Assembly (NCBI GenBank): GCA_024637015.1
Contig: JAGXGE010000015.1
Location: 124,001 to 188,000 of the forward strand
DNA: 64,000 nt
Source of the DNA: Aequorivita sp.
GTDB taxonomy: Bacteria; Bacteroidota; Bacteroidia; Flavobacteriales; Flavobacteriaceae
Direction: 5' to 3'
This document shows positions 9,674 through 25,553 of this stretch, piece by piece; position 1 is the first letter of the stretch, and every line of letters starts with the position of its first letter. A program made the translations under genes and the position numbers. The notes beneath the pieces are model-generated. The model had not been told where the DNA came from. It saw only the letters and a program-made list of their open reading frames with translations, and made no database searches.

Positions 9674-10292
9674 AGTAGTTAATATTAAAAATGGTTGGGT
9701 TTATGTTGGCTCAACCACTTCAACAATTGAAGAGAGAAAAAAAGATCATATTCAAAAATCATATAGTGGAACAGGGCATCAATTTCAAGAAGCAATCGGA
9801 ACTTATGGACCCGATTCTTTTAAATGGGAACAAATTGATATTGCTAATAATAGTAATGAATTAGCCAGTAAAGAGAAAGATTATATAGTGGAGTATAACT
9901 CCAAGAATAATGGATATAATCAGGACTGTGGTGGTGGATTCAAAAAGAATGTATATCAGTATGATCTGGAAGGAGAAATGCAAAATACCTTTGAATGTTT
10001 GCAAGATGCAGCAGAAGCTGTTGAAGTGAATAAGAAAAGTATAAGTGCTGCCTGCCTAGGTAAAATTAAATCCTGCAAAGGGTTTTACTGGAGCTATGAC
10101 TTAATATATGAGTCTATTGCGGACAATAGAATAAAGAAGGTTCAGCAATTTGATTTTAACGACGATTTGATAAATACATTTTCATCTATTGTAGAAGCAT
10201 CAAATATTACAGGAGTTAATAAATCTTGTATTGCAAAATGTTGCAGAGAAGAAAGAAAATCTGCTGGTGGTTTTAGTTGGAAACTTAAATAA
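9660..10292 (+). CDS. GIY-YIG endonuclease with two NUMOD1 DNA-binding repeats
   Basis: The N-terminal 90 residues form a GIY-YIG nuclease domain: a Tyr-Lys-Val-Val start (IYKVV), the second motif WVYVGST, the conserved Arg in TIEERKKDH, and the catalytic Glu in ASKEKDYI. Two NUMOD1-type repeats follow, each beginning with VYQYD or VQQFD and ending in KGFYWSY or GGFSWKL, and each carrying a helix-turn-helix. This arrangement is typical of free-standing homing endonucleases in phages and mobile elements. No intron is evident. The start lies 14 bp inside the preceding RepA-like gene, so the two are coupled. A strong terminator follows at 10307. Confidence 0.88.
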   Translation: MLIYKVVNIKNGWVYVGSTTSTIEERKKDHIQKSYSGTGHQFQEAIGTYGPDSFKWEQIDIANNSNELASKEKDYIVEYNSKNNGYNQDCGGGFKKNVYQYDLEGEMQNTFECLQDAAEAVEVNKKSISAACLGKIKSCKGFYWSYDLIYESIADNRIKKVQQFDFNDDLINTFSSIVEASNITGVNKSCIAKCCREERKSAGGFSWKLK

Positions 10293-10306
10293 ATAATCAT
10301 ATAAGG

Positions 10307-10331
10307 AAAGCGGTCAATTGACCGCTTTTTT
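10307..10331 (+). terminator. Rho-independent terminator, bidirectional
   Basis: AAAGCGGTCAATTGACCGCTTT is a perfect 22-bp palindrome with T runs on both strands. It separates the convergent genes ending at 10292 (+) and 10351 (-). Confidence 0.9.
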
Positions 10332-10350
10332 ATTACTAACAGAACTCGTT

Positions 10351-10800
10351 TTATCTAGATAATTTTATGGTGTATATTGGTAATTTAGTTGCTTCATCTG
10401 CTTTTATTATCCTAATTCCAAATTTATACTTATCATTGCTATATGTCTTAAAAATTCCATCCTCTATTATCTTCGTTTCAACTAGAGTACAACCTAATTT
10501 TTTAATATCTTCCAAATATTGAAGATATCCCTCTTGAGGTACGAAAGTAATAGAACTCCAAATAATCCCCCCGTCTAAATTAAATAAAAAGGTTATTGAA
10601 GAAGTTTTAACACCATCTCCACTCATAAACACTACAACGTCCTTTTCTGTATTATGAATCTCCCATTTTCTAGCAGATAAAAATTCCTCAACTTCACCCA
10701 AGCTTCCATTACTAAGATCTACAAACTGATTGAGGGTAATATTTTGTCCATAAGTTAAGAATGAATTTAAGGCTAGTAAAATTATAATGATTGCTTTCAT
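10351..10800 (-). CDS. Small secreted hypothetical protein
   Basis: The signal peptide MKAIIIILLALNSFLTYGQ is followed by about 130 residues that alternate beta strands and helices (EVEEFLSARKWEIHNTEK, VVVFMSGDGVKTSSITF, FGIRIIKADEATKLPIYTI). The protein is probably periplasmic. I do not recognise the family. Its start codon overlaps the stop of a 59-residue gene in an ATGA junction, and that gene itself follows the type IIG enzyme by 3 bp, so all three are one operon even though an exported protein is an odd partner for a restriction enzyme. Confidence 0.65.
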   Translation of the reverse strand: MKAIIIILLALNSFLTYGQNITLNQFVDLSNGSLGEVEEFLSARKWEIHNTEKDVVVFMSGDGVKTSSITFLFNLDGGIIWSSITFVPQEGYLQYLEDIKKLGCTLVETKIIEDGIFKTYSNDKYKFGIRIIKADEATKLPIYTIKLSR

Positions 10801-10976
10801 AAAATTTTTGAATTTCCATTAATTACACTTATGACTGCTCTAATGATTTGAGCTTTTAAAATTTTTAATTTTTCTATCTCCGATTTTAAGCAATTTTCAA
10901 ATTTTGATAAATTATCTAAATTATTCTTTTCATCCCAATCATTTTGATATTTATTATTTCTTATCACATCATCCAT
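10797..10976 (-). CDS. Very small helical protein between the restriction enzyme and the secreted protein
   Basis: This 59-codon gene begins with ATG at 10976, 3 bp after the stop of the type IIG gene, and its TGA overlaps the ATG of the next gene (ATGA). The protein is acidic at the N terminus (MDDVIRNNKYQNDWDEKNN) and has a likely amphipathic helix in the second half (SEIEKLKILKAQIIRAVISV). The tight spacing at both ends argues that it is translated. The family is not recognised. Confidence 0.5.
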   Translation of the reverse strand: MDDVIRNNKYQNDWDEKNNLDNLSKFENCLKSEIEKLKILKAQIIRAVISVINGNSKIL

Positions 10977-10979
10977 TCT

Positions 10980-13900
10980 CTAACTATTTTCAACAATTGC
11001 TATTTCCTCTTCACTCAACCCATAAAGCTCATAAACCATAGCATCAATTTCCTTATCTGTTGAGGTTATTTGATTTTGAAGTTCCACAGCTATTTTCTGC
11101 TCAGTTAAAAAGTAATCTTCCCATTCTGCTTTTTGTGATAATGAAAGTTCAATCTTTTTCTTTTTTAATTCCTTGAGAAATTCAGCATAAGTTAATTCAT
11201 GCCAATTTTCCAGCTTCTTACTTAATTTATCCAACTGCTCAAATTCTCTTTGTAGAGTTCTTTGGAATTTATCTGAAACATCTTGTAATTTAGAAGTTAA
11301 AAACAGCATTATGTCTACATTTTCTACGAATGGAGTTTGTTGTTCTAAGTTTTTAATTTGGGGTAGTGGAAATGGTTCTAAATATTTAGTCTTAAATGTG
11401 AAAAAACCACCTCTTAATACGTAGCCAGTTGAACTTAGGAAGAACCAAAGTAATTTAGAATTAAGTATTGCCAACCAAAACTTATTCTCTTCTAAAACAT
11501 CCCTTTTTTTTGCTAAGGTGTAACATTTCGTATTATGGTAATTATAATTCACATCCAAGGTCATATTAGTTCCTAAGGAAATCTCTGGTGTAATAATCTT
11601 CTCTTGTTCAAATAAACTAATTTCTCTTGACCTATGTAAACTATACCAGGCTTTTGGATTGGTTTTATATCTTATTTTTTTCTCTATTAATTCATCTTTA
11701 AATGGCAGAATATAATTATATGCCAAAGGAAAGTTTTCTTTGAAGTAATCCTCCTCAAAAGGTACTGTTTTACCATCTTTTTCATAATGAGGATAGAAAC
11801 AATAATAACTATTATTCAGTTGTGCATATTTTTTTACATCTTCCCCTTTTAATAAAGGTTTTACAATGCGAGATTCTATAGTTATCTCTTTATTAATTTT
11901 ATCAGAATATCCAATAAACAAATCACCTTTTATATTTCCTTTTAATAAAAAAATATCATCTCCTACTGAAACTACTCCTTGACTAATACTCTCAAAAACA
12001 TCTTTAATAGTTTGGGGTTGAGAATATAATTTGGTAAATAAATTTGTTATCTTTTTACTATTCAGATTCCATTTTTCTTCAGAAAGTAAATCATAATTAA
12101 TCTCATCAAATTCAAATGGATAAAATATATTATAAGGATTAATTTCTTTAAATTTTAAGATTTTATTATTATTAGATAAATTAATAATACAAGTATAGGT
12201 TGAGGCATCTGCAAAAACCATATCCGAACCAAAATGCAAAATAGATTCTATGCATTTATTATCCACAAAAAACTTTCTTATGCCACTGCCAAAGTCACTA
12301 ATTAAAAACTTATGTGGTAAAATAAATGAGATAAGCCCTCTATCATTTATAAGTTCAAAGGACTTTTCCATAAAGAGTATATACACATCAAATCTTCCTG
12401 TTGCAGACTTATATTCATTTTCATAAAATTTTGATTCTATTTCAAAATTTGTTCTAAGTCCTTGAACTCTTAAATAAGGAGGATTACCAATAATCACATC
12501 AAAACCACCTTTAGCAAATATTTGAGGAAATTCCTTTTCCCAATTGAATGCTTTATCCCCTGCTACAGAAACATCATCAATTAAAGAGTTTCCACATTTA
12601 ATATTATTACTTAAATCATTCAATTTTCTATTAGGTTGTGCAGTCCTTAACCATAATGATAACTTTGCTATCTCTACAGATTCTTCATTTAGGTCAACTC
12701 CAAAAAGGTTGTTCTCCAAAATGCTTTTTTCAACATCACTTAATATAAATGCATCTTTGTTGTACTTGGCAGAAAGTTCATCTATGTATATATGCTCATT
12801 AATTAAGAAGTCCAATGCTTGATTCAAAAATGCTCCAGAACCACAAGCAGGGTCACAAATGGTTAATTGTAATAACCAATTTCTATATAGGTTGAGGTTG
12901 TCCAGTCTTTTTCTGCTCCTTTGCTTTGCTGGTTGGTATGCTTCATCTGTAATGTCAAGTTCTGCTTTCTTTTCCTCACAAAGCTTTCCTATGGTATTTT
13001 CAACTATGTATTTTGTTATGTATTTAGGAGTATAAAATACACCATCCTTTTTCCTTTTGGTATTTAACTTATCTATGGTTTGACCTTCCAATTGGGCTGA
13101 AACCTCATCCAATTCATTAAGAGAATTTTCAAAAATATGTCCAAGTATATTTACATCAACTTCACTTTCAAAATCATACTCTGAAAGCTTATAGGAATGT
13201 TTGTATAGTAAGTCATCATCAATAGTGATAGTGTCTAAAACTGCATCAGGTTTAAACAAACCACCATTATAGGCAAATACATCATATTGCTTGCCTTTAA
13301 AACCAGTGTTTAGATACTCAAAATATTTTTTGAATCTACCATATAAAGGAGTATAAGCATCAAGTTCTTTTAACTGTTTCCATTGGTTTAGGATTAACCT
13401 TACTGAGTTTGGAGGTAGTAAATTTCTATCTTCTGCAAAAAATAAAAACAAACATCTATCCAATAGCTTTTGGGATTTTTTGAAAAGCTCCAATGGCTCA
13501 AACTGTGGGTTTAATTCACACAGGTTTTGGAATAATTTTCTTTTGAAAAGGGAGTAATCTTTGTAGAGTTGTTTAGTAATTAATTCTTCCTGACTTAATG
13601 ACTCTTCTTTTAATTTTTTTGGGAGGTTATTTTTTACATTCTCAAAACTTAAACACAGATATAGTAATTCAAAATCTTGCTCATTTAATGTAAATAAATT
13701 GAACTCTATATGCTCAATTGCATTATCAATATAAAACCTGAGTTTTTCAAAATTTGAGGTAATTACATAAACACATTCTGATTGATTGTTTTTATATCCA
13801 AAAGCTTGTTCCTCAACCTTACTCAGATCTGTTGTATTGGTTCCTTTGAGTTCTACAACCCCTACGACCTTATCATTGATAATAATACCACCATCAGCCT

Positions 13901-14156
13901 TCTTACTGTCTTTTACATTTTTAAGTTCTGTAGTAAGGTTAAAGTCATATTCAGGATTTAAGGTATATCCCAAAATCTTTACAAATAAATCCCTTAAAAA
14001 ACCTTCTTGGTATTGCTCTTCTTTACTATTCCTAATATTTTCCTGAATCGTTGGATTTAAAAAATGGGATTTGTATATGTTCCAACTTTCAGTAAGATTA
14101 CTTCTATTTTGAGTTTTTAAATATTTTGCAACTACTGTATTTTGAAATAATGACAT
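10980..14156 (-). CDS. Type IIG restriction-modification enzyme (Eco57I-like N6-adenine methylase with nuclease)
   Basis: This 1058-residue protein combines restriction and modification in one chain. The N terminus has a PD-(D/E)XK site: Asp88 in KKADGG, Glu102 and Lys104 in VELKG. The methylase core has motif I DPACGSGAF (Asp435) and motif IV NPPY (558-561), the signature of N6-adenine gamma-class enzymes. The C-terminal 400 residues resemble the TaqI-like specificity domain (KPLLKGEDVKKY, PKAWYSLHRSR, FFTFKTKYLEPFPLP) and end in coiled coil. Such enzymes need S-adenosylmethionine to cleave. It starts an operon with the two small genes downstream and probably protects or stabilises the element. 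No degradation is visible. Confidence 0.93.
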   Translation of the reverse strand: MSLFQNTVVAKYLKTQNRSNLTESWNIYKSHFLNPTIQENIRNSKEEQYQEGFLRDLFVKILGYTLNPEYDFNLTTELKNVKDSKKADGGIIINDKVVGVVELKGTNTTDLSKVEEQAFGYKNNQSECVYVITSNFEKLRFYIDNAIEHIEFNLFTLNEQDFELLYLCLSFENVKNNLPKKLKEESLSQEELITKQLYKDYSLFKRKLFQNLCELNPQFEPLELFKKSQKLLDRCLFLFFAEDRNLLPPNSVRLILNQWKQLKELDAYTPLYGRFKKYFEYLNTGFKGKQYDVFAYNGGLFKPDAVLDTITIDDDLLYKHSYKLSEYDFESEVDVNILGHIFENSLNELDEVSAQLEGQTIDKLNTKRKKDGVFYTPKYITKYIVENTIGKLCEEKKAELDITDEAYQPAKQRSRKRLDNLNLYRNWLLQLTICDPACGSGAFLNQALDFLINEHIYIDELSAKYNKDAFILSDVEKSILENNLFGVDLNEESVEIAKLSLWLRTAQPNRKLNDLSNNIKCGNSLIDDVSVAGDKAFNWEKEFPQIFAKGGFDVIIGNPPYLRVQGLRTNFEIESKFYENEYKSATGRFDVYILFMEKSFELINDRGLISFILPHKFLISDFGSGIRKFFVDNKCIESILHFGSDMVFADASTYTCIINLSNNNKILKFKEINPYNIFYPFEFDEINYDLLSEEKWNLNSKKITNLFTKLYSQPQTIKDVFESISQGVVSVGDDIFLLKGNIKGDLFIGYSDKINKEITIESRIVKPLLKGEDVKKYAQLNNSYYCFYPHYEKDGKTVPFEEDYFKENFPLAYNYILPFKDELIEKKIRYKTNPKAWYSLHRSREISLFEQEKIITPEISLGTNMTLDVNYNYHNTKCYTLAKKRDVLEENKFWLAILNSKLLWFFLSSTGYVLRGGFFTFKTKYLEPFPLPQIKNLEQQTPFVENVDIMLFLTSKLQDVSDKFQRTLQREFEQLDKLSKKLENWHELTYAEFLKELKKKKIELSLSQKAEWEDYFLTEQKIAVELQNQITSTDKEIDAMVYELYGLSEEEIAIVENS

Positions 14157-15437: not shown

Positions 15438-15460
15438 GTTCGAGTCTCGTCCAGACCGCA
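15438..15460 (+). other. tRNA-Asp 3'-end fragment, probable attachment site at the element boundary
   Basis: The 23 bases comprise a T-loop (GTTCGAGTC), the 3' half of a T-stem, and an acceptor strand CCAGACC followed by G and CA. This is what I expect for the 3' end of a Flavobacteria tRNA-Asp whose acceptor begins GGTCTGG. The matching 5' T-stem strand is absent (ATTTG instead), so no full tRNA is present. A 3'-end tRNA fragment is the usual mark left by integration into a tRNA gene. The intact tRNA and integrase would then lie to the left of the window. Confidence 0.5.
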
Positions 15461-15549
15461 ATTAAAATGTTGTGTTGAGTCACGTAAAGTGGCTTGTGGT
15501 TTAGAAATAGACCGATGAGAAGCTTATCCATATGGATGGGCTTTTTTTG
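15449..15549 (+). ncRNA. Structured element, copy 1, ending in a terminator
   Basis: The element has four parts. AGACCGCA at the 5' end can pair with TGTGGTTT. A variable hairpin AGTCAC-GTAAA-GTGGCT follows. A hairpin with a GNRA tetraloop comes next, TGGTTTA-GAAA-TAGACC, which uses the same TGGTTT and so competes with the first pairing. Last is a terminator hairpin (15520-15548) with a 10-bp stem and seven T residues. Copy 2 at 25448 keeps the pairing with different bases. It may be a small RNA, or the native region downstream of tRNA-Asp. No promoter of the expected form was found directly upstream. Confidence 0.5.
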
Positions 15550-15665
15550 TTTGTGATCCTGATGTAAATTAATTTATATAAAAAGTGGACATAGCACGGT
15601 ACTTTTAATTTCCCCCAGGTTTTGTTACTAATAGGTTAAAACCAAATCACATTGTTGGAAAAATA
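15549..15665. other. Spacer without features
   Basis: This stretch follows the structured element and precedes the convergent end of the surface protein gene. I see no gene or clear signal in it. Confidence 0.5.
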
Positions 15666-17765
15666 CTAATCAATAAAATAGTCCACCCGGGTCATACGAG
15701 TTTTTAATTTATCGACAATTGTTGCCAGATCTGAAGGAGGTGAAAAAGGGGGGCCGTCCATTATGTCCAATATAATATCCTTTATTTCCGGAATCTTATC
15801 AAGTACAGTTACATCCGGGAAAATATCATTTACAGCATTCGTAATTAAGTTTGTTCTTGGATAAACAACATCAGATCTAAGTTTTTGCATCAATCGAATT
15901 ACAGCGTTATTTTCACTATTAATTGAAGAAACGTTTGCACCTTCCAGCCAGCAAAGCATATAACATTGAAACCTGTCAATACCAAAGGTCTCATCACCGC
16001 AGTCTGTATAACAACTTGCAGATTCTGATTCAGAATTGGCAGGAATTGTTCCTTCAAAACTTGTATCTACGGTGTCAAAAAATATGGGTTTGTAATTTGG
16101 GTTTAAATTCGCTAATTCTTGCTGCATTGAATTAATAACTGTTTGCATAGTATTAACTACTGAACCTATTTGAACTGAGTTAAATCCGACTGCTGTGTTA
16201 ATATAATTAAATATTTTGTCGGGATCCGATTTTTGCCAGGAAATGCCTATAACTTTTGAAAAATCATTGGCCTTCATTGAATCTGGGTTTACGGCTTTCG
16301 CTGTCCCATCTCCATCGCCTGAAGGTAAAATATAGTCTCCGATGTTCACATTTCCTAAAACTAAAATAGGTACTTGCCCCATTAACGCCACTTTTTTAAA
16401 TTTACTTTGTTGGTTTTTTTCAGGCATAGCCCCTACAATGATGGGGTTACTAGTAATTGCCATAAATTGACTCGCGTCTGTAAAGGTTTTTGAAATAGTA
16501 CCACCTTTTACCCCCACAACTTCTCCAAATGAAATAGATTCATTGGGATAGGCTTTTAAAAGCCATTCGGCATAATCGGCACCTCCGGATGAATAACTCG
16601 CACCTGGTTGATCACTTAGGAGAATAATTTTTTCTGCTTGAATTAAACCTTTAACACAGTCTTTTAGGTGGTCGATAGTGTCGTCAAAATCGGCTTCTAC
16701 CCCCGCGGTCGGAATTGCAATTCCTAACTTAATTCCAGTCATAAATGCATGCCATAAGGCTTGCGAGTAGGATTTAGCGAACTCAATGGCAGTATCATTC
16801 TTAAAATATTTTTCTCTTAGAAAACTTTTATCCGATTCATTGTTAAGATCAAAACTATTACCATTAGACAAAACAACAGTATTTTGATCGGTTAATGTTG
16901 CTTCAATGATAAGAATAGCATCGCTTACAACATTCGCATTACCTTCAATTCTTGCAATTGCTTCGTCATTAGTATTGAAAAAGGTAATCCAATTATTTTC
17001 TGGTCCAGGCTCATCTTCGGTGACTTTTACTGCGATTCCTTGTTTTCCTCCTTCCACGCGTAAAGGATAAGCTCCATAAAAAGTGTCTGAACCATTAATC
17101 GCCGCATTAACCGTAACCTGACCATTCAAATTAGTAGCTTTGTTGTCTAAAGGATCCCCTACTGTAAGATCACCCGTAATCAAGGAATTTCCTTCACTGG
17201 TAATTTTTAATCGCACAATATCGTTTGTCACAATATTAAGATCGGTTTCATCCGCAGTTCCTAATTTATCTTCATTGGGGTCTGTATTAGTATTCCCAAC
17301 CAGCTTCCATACATTCCCATTTCCCGGGCCATCGGGCCCTTTATTACTTTCTACACTAGACGCTGTATTGGCATGAAAGGCATAGGGTACTGCATACAGC
17401 TGGCTGTTACTTATGGTTTTAAAGTTTGCAGTATTGTCTTCACTAATAGCAATTTCTATCCAGACCTCACCGGTACTCCAGGGGATTTCATTAAAATCAC
17501 CTTTTACAACTATTCCTTCTCCAATCACGATGGAGAATAATCCAAATTGATTTGTCGTTGGACGATGCTGTTCGGTATAATAGATTTCCGGAGTTTCAAG
17601 CGAGCTTTGTAAGCGTATTTGCAATGCGACTTCTTGGTTGGACATTACCTCTCCATCAAGATCTCTAGCTATGGCCTGATACTTCATTCCGTTAGGGACA
17701 GTTTGTGATAAAATTCCCGGGATAAAGAGAAAAACGGATACGATGGTTATTATAACATTTTTCAT
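15666..17765 (-). CDS. Secreted cell-surface protein with tail-fibre-like autoproteolytic-type domain
   Basis: A signal peptide (about residues 1-21, ending SQ) is followed by the N-terminal domain common in Bacteroidota surface proteins (GMKYQAIARDLDGEVMSNQEV, GLFSIVIGEG, YAVPYAFHANTA). The middle contains short repeated beta segments like those of phage tail proteins. Around residues 395-500, GGADYAEWLLK, GEVVGVKGG and ALMGQVPILVLGNVNIGDYI resemble the intramolecular chaperone/autoproteolytic (peptidase G2-like) domain of tail spikes. The C-terminal 150 residues are not recognised and include four Cys near SCYTDCGDE and CYMLC. It is probably a trimeric or fibrous surface protein. It follows a T9SS protein gene by 31 bp in the same operon. 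Confidence 0.7.
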   Translation of the reverse strand: MKNVIITIVSVFLFIPGILSQTVPNGMKYQAIARDLDGEVMSNQEVALQIRLQSSLETPEIYYTEQHRPTTNQFGLFSIVIGEGIVVKGDFNEIPWSTGEVWIEIAISEDNTANFKTISNSQLYAVPYAFHANTASSVESNKGPDGPGNGNVWKLVGNTNTDPNEDKLGTADETDLNIVTNDIVRLKITSEGNSLITGDLTVGDPLDNKATNLNGQVTVNAAINGSDTFYGAYPLRVEGGKQGIAVKVTEDEPGPENNWITFFNTNDEAIARIEGNANVVSDAILIIEATLTDQNTVVLSNGNSFDLNNESDKSFLREKYFKNDTAIEFAKSYSQALWHAFMTGIKLGIAIPTAGVEADFDDTIDHLKDCVKGLIQAEKIILLSDQPGASYSSGGADYAEWLLKAYPNESISFGEVVGVKGGTISKTFTDASQFMAITSNPIIVGAMPEKNQQSKFKKVALMGQVPILVLGNVNIGDYILPSGDGDGTAKAVNPDSMKANDFSKVIGISWQKSDPDKIFNYINTAVGFNSVQIGSVVNTMQTVINSMQQELANLNPNYKPIFFDTVDTSFEGTIPANSESESASCYTDCGDETFGIDRFQCYMLCWLEGANVSSINSENNAVIRLMQKLRSDVVYPRTNLITNAVNDIFPDVTVLDKIPEIKDIILDIMDGPPFSPPSDLATIVDKLKTRMTRVDYFID

Positions 17766-17796
17766 AATAAGAATATTTAATTGGTTATTAGCGTAG

Positions 17797-18285
17797 TTAT
17801 AGTTTTATGATCTTGTGCGATTCAACATTGAAGCCGCCATTATCGGTTATTTTTAAGAGGTATAATCCGGCCGATAACCCAGCCATATTTATATGAGTGG
17901 TTCTAAACCCCTGATTCAATTTAACTTGTTGTAACATTCTACCATGTATATCGTAGAGGCTTAGCATAAATAGATCATGATCGCTAGTGTTAAGACTGAT
18001 ATTAAAATCCGTAGCCGTTGGGTTTGGAAATATGTTGAAAGACAGCAGAGGATGGGACATCCTCAGGTTTTTTTGGTCAAATGTTTGTTGAAAACCCTGA
18101 GTCAATATGATGTGGCTTTGCCTTACCGTTTCAACAAAACTCTCACCTATGGTCCATTCTATAGTGAGATATTCATTTTTGTCGATATTTCCTTGTGATG
18201 AAATAACAGAGAGTGATACACTTTGGGAATAGGAAAGTGTAGAAACAGCCATTAGAAGAACTGCCAGAGATAAGAATTTTTTCAT
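17797..18285 (-). CDS. Small secreted protein with T9SS type A sorting domain
   Basis: The signal peptide is MKKFLSLAVLLMAVSTLSYS. The N-terminal mature part (VISSQGNIDKNEYLTIEWTIGE, ILTQGFQQTF) is a short beta domain often found before sorting domains in Flavobacteria. The C-terminal 80 residues are a type A sorting domain: NIFPNPTATDFNISL, LYDIHGRMLQQ, LSAGLYLLKIT and a basic end. The mature domain is small, so it is likely a surface anchor or carrier. It is the first gene of a two-gene operon with the tail-fibre-like protein. Confidence 0.88.
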   Translation of the reverse strand: MKKFLSLAVLLMAVSTLSYSQSVSLSVISSQGNIDKNEYLTIEWTIGESFVETVRQSHIILTQGFQQTFDQKNLRMSHPLLSFNIFPNPTATDFNISLNTSDHDLFMLSLYDIHGRMLQQVKLNQGFRTTHINMAGLSAGLYLLKITDNGGFNVESHKIIKL

Positions 18286-18799
18286 GATTATAATATTAAA
18301 ATATGAATAATTAAATCACGCAAAATCAAAAAGTAGTAAGCCCAAAATCAATAAATATTTGAGCAGCGGTTAAGCTTTCATCAGTCAATTAATTTCTTGG
18401 GGATACCTAAGGGGAATTACTAAGGTATTCATTAATCGTCTAATATCCAATTAATTACATAAAAAAACGTTGAATAGCTATTTTTAAAGATAATCCTACA
18501 TTAATTTACAGGAATATAGTTGTAACATGTTGGCTTATAGTGTGTAATATAATTTGTTTTGGTGTATAGCTATTTGAGGACAAGACAGTTTTAAAACTTC
18601 TAAAATAACTCCAGAGTAGTTTTAAAAGAAGTGAAGTTTTAGATATTGAAAAAATTTCTAAGTTATTTAAATTATATTTGAGTAATGTTCCCAAATACCC
18701 TATATAATTTAGGATAGAATAAAAGTGATATTGAACATACTTCTATTTTTTAAGTTTCAAAATGGAGTATTTTTAGAAAGAAACAAAATTACATAGAAG
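18286..18799. other. Intergenic region without recognised genes
   Basis: This 514-bp AT-rich spacer separates divergent transcripts. It must contain the promoters for 18285 (-) and 18800 (+), but I find no convincing TTTG-N20-TAnnTTTG match. A 62-codon frame on the minus strand has no coding character. I see no terminator or RNA gene. Confidence 0.4.
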
Positions 18800-20467
18800 T
18801 TGAAACCAACTACTCAATACACAAAAAGTGGTCGTATTAATATCGCCTATCAGGTCTTCGGTTCAGGTCCCGTAGACTTGGTCTACATCCCTGGGTGGGT
18901 CTCAAATATTGACTGGATGTGGAATTGCCCAGAACTGGTGAGTTTTCTACAAGAACTGGGAAAAATAGCACGAGTTATTTTATTTGACAAGCGAGGAACT
19001 GGACTTTCTGATCGTATCATTGAGCTTTCAACACTTGAAGAAAGAATGGACGACATCCGTGCTGTAATGGACGCTGTAAGATCCAAAAAAGCTGTTTTGT
19101 TTGGGCATTCAGAAGGGGGTTCTGTTTCAGCTCTCTTTGCAGCTACCTATCCCGACAGAACTATTTCTTTAATCACATTTGGCATATTTGCAAAACGGAG
19201 ATATGCTCCAAATTATCCTTGGGCTCCTACTGATGAAGAACGTCAGGCTGTATACGATATGATTGAAAATCGTTGGGGAAGTGGAAATATGGGTCTGGAA
19301 TCCTTGGCGCCTTCTAAAGCTAATGATAAGGTATTTATGGATTGGCTCGCTAATTATTTTCGTTCAGGAGCAAGCCCTAATGCTGCTATGGTTCTTACCA
19401 AGATGAATACTCAGGTTGATATTATTGATATTTTAGGGTCGATAAAAGTACCTGCTTTAATAATGCAGCGAACAAATGATATTGATGTTAAAATTGAAGA
19501 AGGCCGTTTTATTGCGGAGCGGATTCCCGACGCTAAATTTGTAGAACTAGAAGGGAATGATCATTTATTCTGGGTAGGGAATACTGAAATGGTTTTAAAT
19601 GAGATTAAATATTTTGTTAGCAATACAAAACCCGAGATTGTTTATGAAAGAAGTCTTTTTACAATAGGAGCAGCAAGAATAATATCAGACAAGAGACTGA
19701 ATGAAGATCAGCAAGAGTTTTTTAATCAATATGTAGCACAATTCAATGGCCAAATAATTCAAGGCGATGGGCAAACTTTTATGGCTACTTTTGAGGGACC
19801 GAGTAAAGCTGTTAATTGTGCATTTGGATTGATTGACGCGGCAAAAAGTCTAAATTCAACAATTATAATAGGTATCCATATTAAAGAAGGTTCTGTGGAA
19901 GAGTCTAATTTTATAAGTGAAGAAACAGGTTTGTTTATAGAGTCTATTTTTGAACAAGCAGAGCCGAATCAAATTCTTATAACCCAAACTGTAAAATACC
20001 TGTTATTAGGAGCCGGATTGAATTTTTCTCAAAACAAGAAACCAGTTTTTGAAACTGTTTCTGGAGAACCCTATTTTCTTTTTTCTGTTGATGATGACCT
20101 AATTGAAAATAACCAATCAACTAGTTTTCATTTCGACCAACTTCCAAAAAACAATTCTTTCCTAGAAAGTGTACTTCAAAGTATTGATGCTCATATCGAT
20201 GATGAATTATTTAGTGTAGAGAAACTTTGTAAAGAAATTGGTATTAGTGACCGCCAATTGCAACGTAAGCTCAAGGCGATTACCAGTAAATCCCCCAATC
20301 AATTAATTTCTTCCGTACGTCTTCATAGAGCCAAAGAGTTATTGCTTGAAAACGAATATAATATTGCAGAAGTCGCCTATCAAACTGGCTTTTCAAATCC
20401 TTCTTATTTCTCAAAATCCTTCAAAAAAGAATTTGGTGTAACGCCATCTGATTTTCTTCAAAAATAA
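18800..20467 (+). CDS. Three-domain regulator: alpha/beta hydrolase, degenerate class III cyclase domain, AraC helix-turn-helix
   Basis: Residues about 1-275 form an alpha/beta hydrolase: oxyanion segment PGWVSN, nucleophile Ser104 in FGHSEGG, an acid near Asp227-229, and His255 in GNDHLF. Residues about 283-430 resemble the class III adenylate/guanylate cyclase domain that follows this hydrolase type in many proteins. The usual FTDIVGS is replaced by SLFTIGA, losing a metal Asp, although GDG is kept (322-324), so catalysis is doubtful. Residues about 460-555 are an AraC DNA-binding domain (LCKEIGISDRQLQRKLK; EVAYQTGFSNPSYFSKSFKKEFG). The likely role is ligand-responsive transcription control, with the hydrolase acting as sensor or signal-removing enzyme. 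Start is TTG; no better start is visible. Confidence 0.85.
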   Translation: MKPTTQYTKSGRINIAYQVFGSGPVDLVYIPGWVSNIDWMWNCPELVSFLQELGKIARVILFDKRGTGLSDRIIELSTLEERMDDIRAVMDAVRSKKAVLFGHSEGGSVSALFAATYPDRTISLITFGIFAKRRYAPNYPWAPTDEERQAVYDMIENRWGSGNMGLESLAPSKANDKVFMDWLANYFRSGASPNAAMVLTKMNTQVDIIDILGSIKVPALIMQRTNDIDVKIEEGRFIAERIPDAKFVELEGNDHLFWVGNTEMVLNEIKYFVSNTKPEIVYERSLFTIGAARIISDKRLNEDQQEFFNQYVAQFNGQIIQGDGQTFMATFEGPSKAVNCAFGLIDAAKSLNSTIIIGIHIKEGSVEESNFISEETGLFIESIFEQAEPNQILITQTVKYLLLGAGLNFSQNKKPVFETVSGEPYFLFSVDDDLIENNQSTSFHFDQLPKNNSFLESVLQSIDAHIDDELFSVEKLCKEIGISDRQLQRKLKAITSKSPNQLISSVRLHRAKELLLENEYNIAEVAYQTGFSNPSYFSKSFKKEFGVTPSDFLQK

Positions 20468-20499
20468 GTACAGTAGTTCTCATTTCGGAAATGTGATAC

Positions 20500-20655
20500 C
20501 CCGTCGGTCTTGTAACATTTTACGTCGTAAAAGTTGCTATTACCGACCTCAATGTTAGAAAATTGATAGCAAATCAAGTGGGTTCACAAATTAAAATAGC
20601 CTTAAGTCATTTATCTTCTGGAACATACTTATTAATCTTACAAGAGGTGAGATAG
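20500..20655 (+). pseudogene. Remnant of a T9SS sorting-domain protein
   Basis: After an in-frame TGA, about 51 codons read ...VAITDLNVRKLIANQ, then ALSHLSSGTYLLILQEVR and a stop. This is the end of a type A sorting domain (compare IYDLTGRLVQ...LSAGxYLLxI). No start codon or upstream body remains, so only the 3' end of a lost surface-protein gene is left. Confidence 0.6.
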
Positions 20656-20723
20656 TAAGTGCCGAGAAAATAATGAAAGATTAATGAAGGGCAAACTCTA
20701 ACTTTTTAAATTAAGCTTTTACT

Positions 20724-20753
20724 AAGTGGTTCCACCAAGGAGCCACTTTTTTA
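20724..20753 (+). terminator. Rho-independent terminator
   Basis: AAGTGGTTCC pairs with GGAGCCACTT over 10 bp (one G-T pair) around a short loop, followed by six T residues. It would end transcripts from the 18800 gene or from the decayed gene. Confidence 0.85.
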
Positions 20754-20807
20754 TATGAATCTCTCGCTAATATTCAGTTTCAAAAGAATATGTCGGAATT
20801 GTAATAG

Positions 20808-20897
20808 TACGTCGTTTTTGTTGTAACGCCTTGTCGCAAATGTTTACGTTTTCGACGTATTTGTTACACGCTAACTATCTTTAACACAATACTTTTG
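20808..20897 (+). promoter_or_regulatory. Interleaved inverted repeats and -7 element upstream of the nitrogen cluster
   Basis: TACGTCG (20808-20814) and CGACGTA (20853-20859) are complementary, as are TGTAAC (20822-20827) and GTTACA (20863-20868); the two pairs interleave. TACTTTTG (20890-20897) is a perfect TAnnTTTG -7 element, 29 bp before a small membrane-protein gene, but I see no TTTG at the usual distance. The repeats may be operator sites that substitute for a -33 element. Confidence 0.4.
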
Positions 20898-20926
20898 CCC
20901 TGAATTAATTCATTAAAAACAAAGTC

Positions 20927-21037
20927 ATGATACTATTATTAATTATGTTTTTCGCTGCACTGGTCATATTGTATTTATATGCGCTAGTATGTTCAATTAG
21001 AGAAAATAAAAAGTTGAATAAAGAATTTTTTAAGTGA
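20927..21037 (+). CDS. 36-residue single-span membrane protein
   Basis: ATG at 20927 opens a short frame with a hydrophobic N-terminal span (MILLLIMFFAALVILYLYAL) followed by a basic cytoplasmic tail (RENKKLNKEFFK) and TGA. It lies 30 bp downstream of a TAnnTTTG -7 element and upstream of the glutamine synthetase cluster. Small proteins of this form are easy to miss. The clean span-plus-basic-tail design supports translation, but it is not proven. Confidence 0.4.
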   Translation: MILLLIMFFAALVILYLYALVCSIRENKKLNKEFFK

Positions 21038-21100
21038 TTACTAAAAAATCTGAATGATCAATCACAACATTATTATTTAAAAACAATTAAAAAAACGGAA

Positions 21101-21220
21101 ATGAAAATTATAAACCAATATACACACTTAGATAGACCCAAACAAACTATGGGGAGCCAATGGAATTCTAAGAGAAGATTCCACTATGCACAAAAACAAA
21201 ATTTTACAAAACAATTATAA
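21101..21220 (+). CDS. 39-residue basic peptide upstream of glutamine synthetase
   Basis: ATG at 21101 opens a 39-codon frame ending in TAA at 21220, 18 bp before the glutamine synthetase start. The peptide is very basic (WNSKRRFHYAQKQNFTKQL at its end) and carries four Gln codons in the last 15. It may be a leader peptide that couples translation to synthetase expression, or simply chance. I do not recognise a family. Confidence 0.35.
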   Translation: MKIINQYTHLDRPKQTMGSQWNSKRRFHYAQKQNFTKQL

Positions 21221-21238
21221 ACTTTAAATCAATTTATT

Positions 21239-22249
21239 ATGGAAACTTACAAATGCGAGTACATCTGGTTAGACGGTTATCAACCAGAAGCCAATCTAAG
21301 AAGTAAAACGAAAATTGTTCAACTAAACCACCCACCGTCTTTAGAGAATTTATCTCTTTGGTCTTATGATGGAAGCTCAACAAAACAGGCTGAAGGAAGC
21401 TCTTCAGATTGTGTATTGAAACCTGTAAAAGTATACAACGATGCAGGGAGAAAAAACGGATATTTAGTGCTTTGTGAAGTGCTGAATCCAGACCTTACAC
21501 CCCACTCGAGTAATCATCGGGCTTCGTATGAAAATATCAAAGATTTTTGGTTCGGCTTCGAACAGGAGTATGTTATTACCAAGAACGGAAAACCACTTGG
21601 ATTTCCTCAGGAAGGATTTCCAGCTCCACAAGGGCAATATTATTGTGGAATTGGAACCGAAAATGTTGTTGCGAGAGACTTCGTTGAAGAACACCTGGAA
21701 CTATGTCTGGACTGTGGACTCAATATAACAGGTATAAATGCTGAAGTTATGGTAGGCCAATGGGAATATCAACTATTAGGAAAAGGGAGCAAAGATGCTG
21801 CCGATGATCTATACGTTTCACGGTATTTATTGTACCGAATGGCTGAAAAGCACGGTTTAAAAATCGAGCTACATCCAAAACCTGTAAAAGGCGATTGGAA
21901 TGGATCCGGAATGCATGCTAATTTCTCTAACGAAAGGATGAGAACAGAAGGAGGAGCAGATTATTTTGAAATGATTATAAACAATCTGAAAGACAATCAT
22001 GCAGAGCACATTGCTCATTATGGATCAATGAATAATGAAAGACTTACAGGGCTGCATGAGACACAAGCGATTGATCGCTTTTCATACGGCGTAAGTGATC
22101 GTGGAGCATCTATCCGAATTCCATTAACCACTGTAGAAAATGAATGGAAAGGATATTTGGAAGATAGAAGGCCTGCTTCTAACGCTTGTCCCTACCAAAT
22201 TGCAGCAAAAATAACAAACACTGTATCCATGGACACTTTGGTGTCGTAG
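21239..22249 (+). CDS. glnII: Glutamine synthetase type II
   Basis: The enzyme makes glutamine from glutamate, ammonia and ATP. The 336-residue length and sequence match the short GSII form found in eukaryotes and some bacteria. Visible are EYIWLDG, LWSYDGSSTKQAEGSSSD, the FWFGFEQEY active-site Glu motif, GINAEVMVGQWEYQ, the NGSGMHANFS motif with the catalytic His, ERLTGLHETQ, and the DRGASIRIP arginine segment. It is first in a three-gene cluster with a glutaminase and an ammonium transporter. A strong terminator separates it from the glutaminase, so its expression can be set independently. Confidence 0.95.
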   Translation: METYKCEYIWLDGYQPEANLRSKTKIVQLNHPPSLENLSLWSYDGSSTKQAEGSSSDCVLKPVKVYNDAGRKNGYLVLCEVLNPDLTPHSSNHRASYENIKDFWFGFEQEYVITKNGKPLGFPQEGFPAPQGQYYCGIGTENVVARDFVEEHLELCLDCGLNITGINAEVMVGQWEYQLLGKGSKDAADDLYVSRYLLYRMAEKHGLKIELHPKPVKGDWNGSGMHANFSNERMRTEGGADYFEMIINNLKDNHAEHIAHYGSMNNERLTGLHETQAIDRFSYGVSDRGASIRIPLTTVENEWKGYLEDRRPASNACPYQIAAKITNTVSMDTLVS

Positions 22250-22273
22250 AGGAGAAAATTGAACCAGTGAAAA

Positions 22274-22307
22274 GGAGACCATTGTGGGGATGGTCTCCTA
22301 TTTTTTA
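22274..22307 (+). terminator. Rho-independent terminator
   Basis: GGAGACCA and TGGTCTCC form a perfect 8-bp stem with a 9-nt loop, followed by TATTTTTT. It ends the glutamine synthetase transcript. Confidence 0.88.
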
Positions 22308-22323
22308 ATTTAATATAGAAACT

Positions 22324-23910
22324 ATGATCTCTACAACACAATTAGATGAGCATGCATCAGATTCATTGTTTAAGATGCTTGATGCTGAAAATAAAAAGAG
22401 CATAACATCGAATACATTCTTAAATCAACTTGCTGAAAATGGTATTTTAGAAGATGATCCAAGAATGCGAGAGTTGTTGCATAGCTTTACCTTTAAAGTA
22501 CCGAAGGATACTAAAACCATTACTCAAGCAGAATTTAATGACATACTAAAGCAAAATGCTTTAGTAAAAAAGTCCCTTTCAAAAAACTTGGTCATTCCAG
22601 ATTTTGAATCCTTCTGCAAACATATTGAAGATATTTTTTTTGAAACAAGAAAAAACAAAACCGGAAAAGTAGCAGATTATATTCCACAGTTAGCACGTGT
22701 CAATCCAGAGCAATTTGCTATTTCTATCTGTACTGTAGACGGGCAACGTTTTTCAATAGGAGACTCTAATGTTGACTTTTGCTTGCAATCTTCTTGTAAA
22801 CCCATCAACTATTGTCTTGCACTGGAGGAGCTTGGAGAGCAGAAAGTACATAGTCACGTTGGACGTGAACCTAGCGGGCAATCCTTCAACGAGCTGGCGC
22901 TTAATTTGAAAGGGCTTCCTCATAATCCTATGATAAATGCTGGTGCGATGATGAGTTGTTCGCTTATAGACCGCAAAAACAGTATTGCAGACCGGTTCGA
23001 CAAAGTGAATAGAACATGGAAAGCACTATGTGCAGAAAAAGCTGTTAGCTTTAACAACTCGGTCTACCTATCTGAAAGACAAACTGCAGATCGAAATTTT
23101 GCACTAGCTTATTTTATGAGAGAGAAAAATGCGTTTCCTGAAAAAACAAATTTGACCGAAACCTTAGAATTTTATTTTCAGTGTTGTTCAATCGAGTCAA
23201 AAACCTACGACCTAGCGGCTGCTGCTGCAACACTTGCAAATGCAGGGACCAATCCATTAACGGGTGAAGTTATTTTTAAATCTTCTACGGTTCAAAATTG
23301 TTTGTCGTTAATGCTAAGTTGTGGTATGTATGATTTTTCTGGAGAATTTGCTTTTAAAATCGGCCTACCAGCTAAGAGTGGTGTTTCTGGTGCTTTAATG
23401 CTGGTGATTCCTAATGTAATGGGTATTAGTATATGGTCCCCTAGATTAGATGAGATTGGCAATTCGGTTCGTGGTGTAGAATTCTGTAAACGTCTTGTAG
23501 AGCGTTTCAGCTTCCATCAATATGATTCATTAACAGGACATTCAACTAAAATCAACCCTAGAAAAAAGGAGAAAGAAGTAAAGGCTTCGAAAGTAATGGA
23601 ACTCATCTGGTCTGCAAGCCATGGAGATTTAGATGAAATACTTCGCCTAGAGGCAGAAGGTGTGAGCCCTGATATAGCAGATTATGATGGACGCACGCCA
23701 CTTCATCTAGCAACATCTGAGGGACAATTAGAAGTAGTAAAGCATCTTATTTCAAAAAATGTAAACCTTAGTCCGAAAGATAGATGGGGCAACACACCTA
23801 TGGAGGACGCAATTAAGTTTAAGCATAAGGAAATACAAAAATTGCTAGAGCAAGCGATTAAATCTTGTAATAGCAAAAAGGATAAAGTAATAGAAAGTAT
23901 ACTTATATAA
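22324..23910 (+). CDS. glsA: Glutaminase with N-terminal helical domain and C-terminal ankyrin repeats
   Basis: The enzyme hydrolyses glutamine to glutamate and ammonia. The central domain (about residues 95-400) has the serine-dependent beta-lactamase-like fold: YIPQLARVNPEQFAIS, the SxxK motif in QSSCKPINY (about residue 156), HVGREPSG, PHNPMINAGAM, and SGVSGALMLVIPNVMG. The first 90 residues resemble the EF-hand-like N-terminal region of animal-type glutaminases, and the last 110 contain ankyrin repeats (DYDGRTPLHLATSEGQLEVVKHL; DRWGNTPMEDAIKF). This long architecture is like eukaryotic glutaminase and unlike the ~300-residue bacterial enzyme. It is 8 bp from the ammonium transporter gene, so the two are co-transcribed. 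Confidence 0.93.
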   Translation: MISTTQLDEHASDSLFKMLDAENKKSITSNTFLNQLAENGILEDDPRMRELLHSFTFKVPKDTKTITQAEFNDILKQNALVKKSLSKNLVIPDFESFCKHIEDIFFETRKNKTGKVADYIPQLARVNPEQFAISICTVDGQRFSIGDSNVDFCLQSSCKPINYCLALEELGEQKVHSHVGREPSGQSFNELALNLKGLPHNPMINAGAMMSCSLIDRKNSIADRFDKVNRTWKALCAEKAVSFNNSVYLSERQTADRNFALAYFMREKNAFPEKTNLTETLEFYFQCCSIESKTYDLAAAAATLANAGTNPLTGEVIFKSSTVQNCLSLMLSCGMYDFSGEFAFKIGLPAKSGVSGALMLVIPNVMGISIWSPRLDEIGNSVRGVEFCKRLVERFSFHQYDSLTGHSTKINPRKKEKEVKASKVMELIWSASHGDLDEILRLEAEGVSPDIADYDGRTPLHLATSEGQLEVVKHLISKNVNLSPKDRWGNTPMEDAIKFKHKEIQKLLEQAIKSCNSKKDKVIESILI

Positions 23911-23918
23911 AAACAAAA

Positions 23919-25130
23919 ATGATGAATACAGGAGATACAGCATGGGTATTGATCGCAACAGCATTAGTAATGTTAATGACTCCAGCAGGTTTGGCGTTGT
24001 TTTATGGCGGACTATCCAATAAAAAAAATGTAATGAACACGGTTGGCATGAGCTATGTAGCGTTTTGCACAGCCACACTGGCCTGGGTTGTAGCAGGTTA
24101 TAGTATTGCTTTTGGTCCAAATGGCCATCCAGTTTTTGGATCATTAGAAAGCGTATTTTTAAAGAACATATCAATAGATCAATTGGTTGGAACAATTCCT
24201 GAACTTGCTTTTGTTGCCTTCCAAGGAGTTTTTGCGGCCATTGCAGTGGCCATTATATGTGGTTCAGTAGTAGGTCGATTTAAATTCAGTAGTTGGATTA
24301 TTTTTTCAACACTTTGGGTGCTATTTGTGTATGCACCATTGGTAAGATTGGTTTGGGGAGATGGCTTACTAAATAATTTAGGAGAACTAGATTTTGCTGG
24401 CGGAACGGTAATTCATGTTAATGCTGGTGTGGCGGGTCTATTGCTGGCATTATTACTTGGCAAAAGAAAAAAGAAAATCGTTCATAAAACCAAGCCCTCG
24501 TCTATAAAACTTACCATTTTAGGATCGGCGTTACTTTGGTTTGGTTGGTTTGGCTTTAACGCAGGAAGTCAATTAGCTGCTGATGGGATTGCGGCTAATG
24601 CACTCTTGGTGACCAACGTTTCAGCCTGTGCAGGTGCATTAGCCTGGATGTTGTTTGAATGGTCAAAAAAGCAAAAACCCAGCATTTTAGGACTTGCCTC
24701 TGGAGCTATTTCTGGTTTAGTAGGGATTACTCCTGCAGCAGGATACGTAGGAATTGAAGGTGCTTTAGTGATTGGTTTAGTATCTGGAATAGTAGGCTAT
24801 TATAGTGTAGTCTATTTAAAAAAGGCACTTAACTATGACGACACTTTAGATGCGTTTGGAATTCATGGGGTAGTGGGAATATGGGGGTCTATTGCAACAG
24901 GTCTTTTTGCTGACCCTAGTATCAATGGTGAAGCTGGGCTTTTTTATGGAAACCCTCATCAATTAGTGTCGCAAGTTATTGCTGTTCTTATTACGATAGT
25001 ATTCTCTTTAGTTGGGACATTTGTGCTCTATAAAATAACGCAACTTCTCACCCGAGGAACAAGAGTAGATGAAGCTATAGAATTAAAAGGAATTGACGCG
25101 GCTTATCACAATGAAAAAAGCTTTTCATGA
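23919..25130 (+). CDS. amt: Ammonium transporter (Amt family)
   Basis: This inner-membrane channel of about 11 spans conducts ammonium or ammonia. Family features are MTPAGLALFYGGLSNKKNVMN, AFQGVFAAIAVAIICGSVVGR, DFAGGTVIHVNAG with the first pore His (about residue 166), LWFGWFGFNAGS, ITPAAGYVG and AFGIHGVVGIWGS with the second pore His (about residue 315). One point is unusual: the APIAHWVWG region reads APLVRLVWG, so the conserved His is replaced. It is coupled to the glutaminase gene. No GlnK gene lies next to it; the only PII-like gene in the window is in the metal cluster at 60219. Confidence 0.95.
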   Translation: MMNTGDTAWVLIATALVMLMTPAGLALFYGGLSNKKNVMNTVGMSYVAFCTATLAWVVAGYSIAFGPNGHPVFGSLESVFLKNISIDQLVGTIPELAFVAFQGVFAAIAVAIICGSVVGRFKFSSWIIFSTLWVLFVYAPLVRLVWGDGLLNNLGELDFAGGTVIHVNAGVAGLLLALLLGKRKKKIVHKTKPSSIKLTILGSALLWFGWFGFNAGSQLAADGIAANALLVTNVSACAGALAWMLFEWSKKQKPSILGLASGAISGLVGITPAAGYVGIEGALVIGLVSGIVGYYSVVYLKKALNYDDTLDAFGIHGVVGIWGSIATGLFADPSINGEAGLFYGNPHQLVSQVIAVLITIVFSLVGTFVLYKITQLLTRGTRVDEAIELKGIDAAYHNEKSFS

Positions 25131-25447
25131 CTAGTATTTTAATTTAAGATATAAACAGAAATGACGGTTTGGGTCCGCAACTCACCTATAAAAAAATCCA
25201 TTATATCATTTTTCTGAAGATGATACTATTCGTGGAAATGTTTTAGGTCATGGAGCAGCAGGAGAAACGTTTTTGTTTCTAAACTTGTGAATTAATTTCG
25301 AAGAACTAAATGTATAGTAAGTCCGAAAATTAGTACAATGCTTCTATGTGTATATAGATTTTTTCAGAAACGATAAAAAAACTGGAATTCTCTAGTTACG
25401 TGTATAAGAATGTGCTGAGATAATAAACAGTACTTTTCAATCTGCAT
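25131..25447 (+). other. Spacer with a possible short coding remnant
   Basis: Near 25210-25290 a frame reads YHFSEDDTIRGNVLGHG, then AAGETFLFLNL and a stop, with no start codon and a frame change upstream. It could be the tail of a lost outer-membrane protein. The rest shows no gene, and I cannot name the family. Confidence 0.25.
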
Positions 25448-25553
25448 GTCCAGACCGCAACTAAAATGTTGTGTTGTTCTCCACCAGAGGCGGAGGATGT
25501 GGTTTAGCAATAGACCGATGAGAAGCTTTTCCTAAATGGAGAGGCTTTTTTTG
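25448..25553 (+). ncRNA. Structured element, copy 2, ending in a terminator
   Basis: This copy shares nearly all bases of copy 1 outside the variable hairpin. The variable hairpin is TTCTCC paired with GGAGGA, different from copy 1 but again paired. The tetraloop hairpin has GCAA in place of GAAA, both GNRA loops. The terminator stem (25523-25552) changes several bases while keeping all 10 pairs. Only 12 bases of tRNA-like sequence (GTCCAGACCGCA) precede it, fewer than in copy 1. It lies 286 bp upstream of the histidine kinase gene and is separated from it by its own terminator. Confidence 0.55.

Follow-up and report, generated by a model that had tools for sequence, protein, structure and literature searches.

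RNAs derived from tRNA transcripts can act by base-pairing, as 3′ETS-leuZ of Escherichia coli does as a sponge of small RNAs (sRNAs), and RNA control of pnp, the gene of polynucleotide phosphorylase (PNPase), occurs in the same organism, where the pnp leader is autoregulated and the sRNA SraG is encoded beside pnp. Here we describe an element that is present twice in a window of 64,000 nucleotides (nt), the whole stretch of Aequorivita sp. DNA that was analyzed (assembly GCA_024637015.1, contig JAGXGE010000015.1, positions 124,001 to 188,000 of the forward strand). Its RNA would resemble 3′ETS-leuZ in coming from a tRNA transcript and in base-pairing, with the difference that 3′ETS-leuZ sponges sRNAs; it would resemble SraG and the E. 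coli leader in RNA control of pnp, except that SraG adjoins pnp and the RNA described here is unlinked to it. We consider it likely that the element is the gene of a Flavobacteriaceae sRNA which, made from the tRNA-Asp transcript or from its own promoter, pairs in trans with the pnp leader and so regulates PNPase synthesis. This proposal builds on an RNA family, its covariation, its linkage to tRNA-Asp and its co-varying complementarity to the pnp leader, all established computationally. By analogy, the nearest mode of action is that of the FopS sRNAs: FopS and GibS of Bacteroides thetaiotaomicron are likewise short, multicopy Bacteroidota sRNAs with a 5′ seed, their own promoters and pairing to mRNA leaders, but they belong to the Bacteroidaceae, target susC-like mRNAs near the start codon instead of pnp, and no tRNA link is mentioned in the sections of the report consulted (PMC11697453). 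Rfp18 of Flavobacterium psychrophilum is likewise a structured, genus-conserved sRNA with several stem-loops including a "third stem-loop"; compared by description only, it differs in that this third stem-loop is reported, in the sections consulted, to pair with metalloprotease mRNAs (PMC9723704). The Flavo-1 motif of Rfam, which the same partly consulted source reports as coinciding with a number of transcribed 5′ regions (PMC9723704), is also structured and widespread in the Flavobacteriaceae, and its sequence model does not match the element. In this family, where post-transcriptional control is little known, the element offers a family-wide RNA and a predicted target, encoded at loci that are unlinked yet show compensatory changes.

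The two window copies lie on the forward strand at 15438–15549 and 25448–25553, where a sequence-only reading had placed two elements with near-identical ends, the first of them from 15449. Both open with a 3′-terminal piece of tRNA-Asp(GTC). Copy 1 keeps 22 nt of it (GTTCGAGTCTCGTCCAGACCGC, 15438–15459, an att-like left joint), letter-identical to the intact tRNA-Asp, and copy 2 keeps 11 nt at its left joint (GTCCAGACCGC, 25448–25458). The full-length RNA follows at 15461–15546 (97.3 bits, E = 2.3e-16) and 25460–25550 (88.1 bits, E = 1.7e-14), as scored with our covariance model R1. In the window ARAGORN found no tRNA, and no Rfam 15 family matched at its gathering score. The RNA, of about 90–100 nt, consists of an unpaired 5′ segment GUUGUGUUG, two hairpins and an intrinsic terminator at its end. 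In copy 1, block A (GUUGUGUUG, 15469–15477), a conserved 5′ single-stranded segment and predicted seed complementary to CAACACAAC of the pnp leader, precedes the variable, covarying hairpin 1 (15478–15494, helix 1), hairpin 2 (UGGUUUA-GAAA-UAGACCG, 15497–15514, helix 2), block B (AGACCGAUGAGAAGC, 15509–15523), the predicted partner of UUUUUCAUUGGUC in the pnp leader, and the intrinsic terminator (helix 3 plus T-run, 15517–15548). Copy 2 has block A at 25468–25476 (GUUGUGUUG), hairpin 1 at 25477–25497, block B at 25512–25526 with the same letters as in copy 1 (AGACCGAUGAGAAGC) and its intrinsic terminator at 25520–25552. The differences between the copies are those read before: hairpin 1 reads AGTCAC/GTGGCT in the first copy and TTCTCC/GGAGGA in the second with pairing kept, hairpin 2 changes from GGTTTA-GAAA-TAGACC to GGTTTA-GCAA-TAGACC, and the terminator stem from GAGAAGCTTATCC/GGATGGGCTTTTT to GAGAAGCTTTTCC/GGAGAGGCTTTTT. 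All pnp-pairing blocks are intact in both. The same genome holds a third full copy directly behind the intact tRNA-Asp(GTC) (C28:118909–118983, equal to L006:14909–14983), 5 kb before the window, and a degenerate fourth at C28:120406–120487; all copies are on this one contig (C28), and the repetition is far beyond chance.

Model R1 was built from 59 of 73 candidate sequences, 14 having been dropped by hand, mostly longer ones with inserts. R1 matched 227 of 397 Flavobacteriaceae genomes in 153 of 237 genera (E ≤ 1e-3), a tally that includes matches weaker than E = 2.7e-5, few of which were inspected. With laxer filters, 28 of 30 genomes taken from the 170 without an earlier match gave a match at E ≤ 0.05, and in the loci read (one per genome, two for G089) a convincing RNA with GUUGUGUUG was seen in 19 of the 30, plus a variant in G029; some R1-negative genomes are therefore false negatives. 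A sequence pattern made from the conserved blocks found at least 111 loci in named genomes, with Aequorivita, Aquimarina, Gillisia, Ulvibacter, Patiriisocius, Altibacter and Marinirhabdus among the matches listed; single pattern matches are filed as Saprospiraceae and Rokubacteria and may be misassigned records. Beyond the family, the order-level search matched 26 of 196 genomes, two of them outside the Flavobacteriaceae, and the class-wide search 41 of 395, with 27 outside the family, all at E = 1.7e-5 or weaker. Among eight out-of-family loci inspected (L249–L256), only L250 had GTTGTGT nearby, and it was unlike the RNA of this family. Searches of phage, plasmid and viral contigs gave no match.

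The full copies in six loci had no Rfam match at E ≤ 5, and copy 1 alone reached at best 15.8 bits against a gathering score of 48. Flavo-1 and the other Rfam 15 families were rejected at gathering and relaxed thresholds alike; of the kinship with Flavo-1 that had been considered possible, the structured motif stands and the match does not, so that the element is not Flavo-1 as Rfam defines it. The Bacteroides sRNA BTnc231 matches weakly over the degenerate fourth copy (C28:120395–120488, L002:2932–3025; 23.9 bits, gathering 80.4, E = 0.71). In titles and abstract openings no description of this RNA was found, nor any paper joining Flavobacteriaceae, sRNA and PNPase. Judged by sequence, the elements are copies of a putative small RNA gene family of the Flavobacteriaceae that is absent from Rfam.

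Covariation was measured on 137 matches (119 distinct), in an alignment fitted to the model structure, which favours that structure; here 94.6% of helix cells were paired, and double changes filled 476 cells versus 132 in shuffled alignments. The covariation score was 0.488, versus 0.179 after shuffling and at most 0.133 for slid structures, and none of 500 shuffles reached it. Of the 25 pairs, 16 showed a double change (13.5 in shuffles), a count that 10 of 500 shuffles reached; the other four of the five measures were reached by none. Covariation was present in all three helices and strongest in hairpin 1, with double changes in 6/6 pairs of hairpin 1, 6/6 of hairpin 2 and 4/13 of the terminator stem, and a MAFFT alignment of the 59 sequences gave the same picture. 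The helices are thus kept by compensatory changes, as in a structured RNA family. The sequence-only reading had suspected such a family and had named two contrary outcomes, the lack of paired copies in other genomes and a plain post-tRNA spacer devoid of covariation; copies are present in more than 200 genomes and their helices covary. Hairpin 1 has no fixed sequence, and GUUGUGUUG, GUGGUU and ACCRAUGARAAGC are nearly fixed. These blocks were imposed on the first set by the search pattern; the covariance-model matches found independently of the pattern mostly keep them, with exceptions. A conserved single-stranded seed and a terminator of its own are present, as in trans-acting base-pairing sRNAs. 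In several loci (L023–L026, L028–L030) REP-like palindromes (CCCGATAGCTATCGGG and similar; CACTGAGCGGAGCCGAAGTG) sit inside the RNA hairpin loops and leave the stems unbroken.

The search pattern and the model contain no tRNA sequence. Among the matches listed, 86 of 117 pattern copies nevertheless lie at most 250 nt downstream of a tRNA, which is always tRNA-Asp; 19 of the remainder have only an upstream tRNA-Asp 3′ piece, 3 stand at a contig or locus start, and 9 have neither. Among 89 covariance-model loci, hand-chosen and sometimes two of one genome, with the later-fetched regions (20, then 40) our own choice among the listed R1 matches, 58 lie 1–234 nt behind tRNA-Asp in a 400-nt search, 7 have a tRNA-Asp fragment and 24 lack both, tRNA-Asp being absent over 400 nt along with any piece of the TCGTCCAGACCGC type, although some of these 24 carry altered pieces (e.g., L208, L286, L292). 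Some loci have two neighbouring tRNA-Asp genes, and the RNA then lies in the gap, downstream of the pair or downstream of each gene (L168, L213, L216, L218–L221). The element is thus the downstream neighbour of tRNA-Asp, and AGACCGC at its 5′ side is the end of tRNA-Asp(GTC), a point missed in the earlier reading. That reading had seen a possible switch in the pairing of AGACCGCA with TGTGGTTT; because AGACCGC is the tRNA-Asp acceptor strand, and in many members the RNA either is separated from the tRNA by about 18–75 nt, often with another terminator in between, or lacks a neighbouring tRNA, this pairing is no family feature and the switch was rejected.

With most copies directly behind tRNA-Asp and a terminator at their end, the element could be a mere 3′ trailer of tRNA-Asp that serves tRNA processing and termination and has no partner in trans. 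We regard this as highly improbable. In Aquimarina, Gillisia and others the tRNA is followed, as judged by eye, by a separate terminator-like hairpin and T-run and only then by the RNA; GUUGUGUUG is dispensable for termination yet among the most conserved parts, also in most covariance-model matches; the complementarity to the pnp leader co-varies; and some copies that lack a tRNA have a promoter-like box of their own. This box, TAnnTTTG, which we take to be the Bacteroidota −7 element, stands 3–5 nt before GUUGUG in 6 of the 24 copies with no tRNA, and within 45 nt in 0 of 58 tRNA-linked copies; five further copies from the laxer search have it 4 nt upstream as judged by eye (L459, L461, L463, L464, L470). 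With the box so placed, transcription probably begins at GUUGUG in copies that own a promoter; elsewhere the RNA would come from the tRNA transcript.

To return to the proposed sRNA, a conserved leader of pnp carries the complements of its segments GUUGUGUUG, UGUGGUU and GACCRAUGARAAG, arranged antiparallel. In relatives the leader block resembles UUUUUCAUUGGUCAACCACAACAACACAACAACAC and, read backwards, gives GUGUUGUUGUGUUGUUGUGGUUGACCAAUGAAAAA, that is, the RNA minus hairpin 1 and the hairpin 2 loop. The perfect 9-mer CAACACAAC, the complement of the RNA 5′ end, has 29 sites in the genome of the window: 3 in the RNA itself, 1 in the pnp leader, 1 elsewhere outside genes and 24 inside genes. 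It is present in 26/26 Aequorivita pnp leaders fetched, from 27 genomes searched for pnp (the leader of G015 was not fetched), and in 0/4 pnp leaders from outside the family. In G015 the start of pnp appears as two overlapping matching pieces, each with a stop codon (C1:1661005–1661305), possibly a frameshift or an assembly error. In other family genomes, ATTGG with CACAAC or CAACAC no more than 70 nt after it was found in 28/28, 35/40 and 19/20 leaders, 82/88 together, the first 28 being those with the most similar pnp and the other 60 hand-chosen; G141, counted in the 82, passes only via a neighbouring ATTGG, its motif reading CACTGG. The six misses are G084, G029, G066, G060, G167 and G114, of which G060 and G167 have altered blocks that are still complementary. 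As antiparallel pairing requires, the block B site lies upstream of the block A site in 42 of 43 leaders. Across 149 family genomes a two-block pattern (TTCATTGG then CAACAC) had 362 occurrences and the reversed pattern 97; in the genome of the window two (overlapping) of the three matches to the two-block pattern are the pnp leader. One laxer covariance-model match, L469 in G197, is the reverse strand of the pnp leader, as expected from the complementarity of RNA and leader. The leader had no Rfam match in the four pnp loci scanned, and the S15-Flavobacteria leader at the scanned pnp loci is a separate element from the pnp leader block.

Pairing of each RNA with its own leader was compared with swapped combinations in the 43 and 63 genomes for which both were to hand, by permutation tests that ignore relatedness. 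For 43 genomes the cognate mean was −28.31 kcal/mol versus −26.68 for swapped leaders (0/20,000 permutations as low) and −15.96 for shuffled leaders; for 63 genomes it was −28.46 versus −27.24 (sd 0.20), again with 0/20,000 permutations as low. Individual lineages display the matching changes. In G060 the RNA has GUUGUGUG and ACUUUUUGAGAAG and the leader CACACAAC and UUUCUCACAAAGU, and its own leader ranks first of 63; G186 and G101, with GUUGUGUGUUG in the RNA and CAACACACAAC in the leaders, rank their own leaders 1 and 2; and G168, with GUUAGUCGAUGAAAAG in the RNA and CUUUUCAUUGGUUAAC in the leader, ranks its own first. In G167, GUUGUGUA and GAAGUGG of the RNA are matched by UACACAAC and CCACUUC of the leader, which ranks 13 on the pair of blocks scored, and in G180 CCAAUGGAAAG faces UUUUCCAUUGG (rank 16). 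Conserved and co-varying complementarity to an unlinked mRNA leader, as expected of an sRNA, thus appears to be present, with relatedness uncontrolled.

Expression, processing and a regulatory effect, of either sign, are inferred. At tRNA-Asp-linked loci, read-through of the tRNA transcript would yield the RNA, released by tRNA 3′ processing; in some lineages the gene stands by itself and has a promoter-like box of its own. In the pnp leader, GUUGUGUUG would pair with CAACACAAC, UGUGGUU with AACCACA, and GACCRAUGARAA with UUUUUCAUUGGUC, with hairpin 1 and the hairpin 2 loop bulged out of the RNA–leader duplex. In several of ten folded leaders CAUUGG(UC) pairs with a downstream GACCA or the like, and the CAACACAAC region is open. 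The RNA 5′ end may land on this open region, after which block B would invade the leader stem. In the Aequorivita leader an upstream GUUUUUCAU is able to pair with AUGAAAAAC near the pnp start, and therefore RNA binding would free the initiation region. The mean unpaired fraction of that region was 0.441 in free leaders, 0.514 in bound ones and 0.455 with random blocks, in 103 of 114 leaders (the rest being too short or without a recognised site); it rose by more than 0.02 in 51 and fell in 11. The predicted freeing of the initiation region slightly favours activation of pnp in Aequorivita. Such control would link tRNA production with RNA decay.

Several observations weigh against the proposed sRNA, in addition to the relatedness left in the permutation tests and the weak matches within the family tally. 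Since most RNAs share near-identical blocks, the co-variation rests on few lineages. Own leaders are not preferred in G114 (rank 60/63), G029 (rank 54) and G135 (rank 31), and many common RNAs are mid-list and some low (G176 36/43, G090 32/43). G114 (L240) and G029 (L444) have an altered RNA 5′ seed and their pnp leader motif is gone, possibly by loss or switch of the target. No convincing RNA was seen in 10 of the 30 re-searched genomes, though the leader motif was in most leaders seen there, and weak terminator matches were common at E = 1e-3 to 0.05 in the laxer search. When CAACACAA was counted generically at distances of up to 20 nt from ATG, no enrichment specific to the element emerged: there were 661 sites against 571 for the reversed control in 18 Aequorivita, and 476 against 323 in 12 genomes from other families. 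Beyond Aequorivita the predicted opening of the initiation region is weak, and because the rise among the 24 leaders listed is seen in Aequorivita and hardly elsewhere, we make no general claim of it.

The GU-rich, single-stranded 5′ end of the RNA would also suit another role, as a sponge for other sRNAs or as a ligand of an RRM protein; the pnp leader would then be one partner among several or would itself sponge the RNA. Bacteroides FopS sRNAs bind the protein RbpB by their 5′ part, according to the sections of the report consulted (PMC11697453). A search limited to perfect short matches found no second conserved partner, and we think such a role rather unlikely. Tentatively, and as an extension of pairing with pnp, the RNA behind tRNA-Asp might report the capacity for RNA decay. 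When PNPase is scarce, the trailer RNA would outlive its making and free the pnp initiation region, and PNPase would be restored; the loop would be family-wide, and islands at tRNA-Asp would bring or rebuild copies, keeping it running or tuning RNA decay in the host. We hold this only as a possibility.

The layout of the two window copies concerns such islands. In Aequorivita the locus has conserved flanks, with DUF58 followed by tRNA-Asp at one end and nitroreductase-BlaI-M56 at the opposite end. G011 has an empty site with 184 bp from the RNA to the next gene, and in G027 the RNA is 59 bp from the nitroreductase and 92 kb from tRNA-Asp; in the genome of the window, neither the window itself nor the following 12 kb showed the nitroreductase. 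Near the intact tRNA-Asp, at C28:120620–121822, lies a tyrosine integrase (Arm-DNA-bind_5, Phage_int_SAM_5, Phage_integrase), the two together spanning C28:118909–121822. A 20.5-kb segment closes with the first window copy and a 10-kb segment with the second. From the flanks, the tRNA pieces and the integrase it follows that islands accumulated at tRNA-Asp; the window copies mark joints of islands stacked at its 3′ end, and the two-copy layout results from these insertions. A tRNA 3′ piece at the distal joint and an integrase beside the tRNA are found as in other tRNA-targeted integrative elements with tyrosine integrases, but here, unlike in the usual tRNA-gene islands, the repeat extends through the whole sRNA gene. 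Integration at tRNA-Asp would thereby touch more than the tRNA, since the putative sRNA gene sits just behind it. In some partial copies just the right half of the element is left, suggesting that insertion also occurs at a second point there. GGTGTGC repeats at L006:15128–15146 and 16548–16587, after the first and the degenerate copies and before the integrase, are candidate integrase arm sites.

These features invite the explanation that the element is chiefly a recombination (att) site, its copies being the insertion footprints of islands and single-gene cassettes. The tRNA-Asp 3′ pieces on distal copies, the tyrosine integrases beside tRNA-proximal copies in several genomes, the right-half partial copies, and gene-element-gene-element arrays, in which the elements of 15 mapped loci share one orientation and the genes face both ways, all agree with it. 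It explains the window copies, but not the RNA: the empty site of G011 still has the RNA, the RNA is family-wide, and neither covariation nor pnp pairing is expected of an att site. On these grounds it was rejected as the sole explanation, and as the chief one we regard it as highly improbable. Integron attC sites fold into a single long, imperfect hairpin whose core sites pair, and they are served by an IntI integrase; this identity was rejected, since the element has three separate hairpins and the neighbouring integrase matches the three domains named above.

The arrays themselves (L131, L115, L101, L105, L096, L107, L077, L141) consist of single genes, many with secreted- or lipoprotein-like starts, separated by element copies; similar gene starts recur between arrays, which look like cassettes collected at the tRNA-Asp/sRNA locus. 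Within the window, at 9660–14156, the first island carries an Eco57I-like restriction-modification protein (10980–14156), and a GIY-YIG/NUMOD endonuclease gene is found at 9660–10292. In the island segment at 21239–25130, genes for a glutamine synthetase-like protein, an ankyrin-repeat glutaminase and an ammonium transporter adjoin one another.

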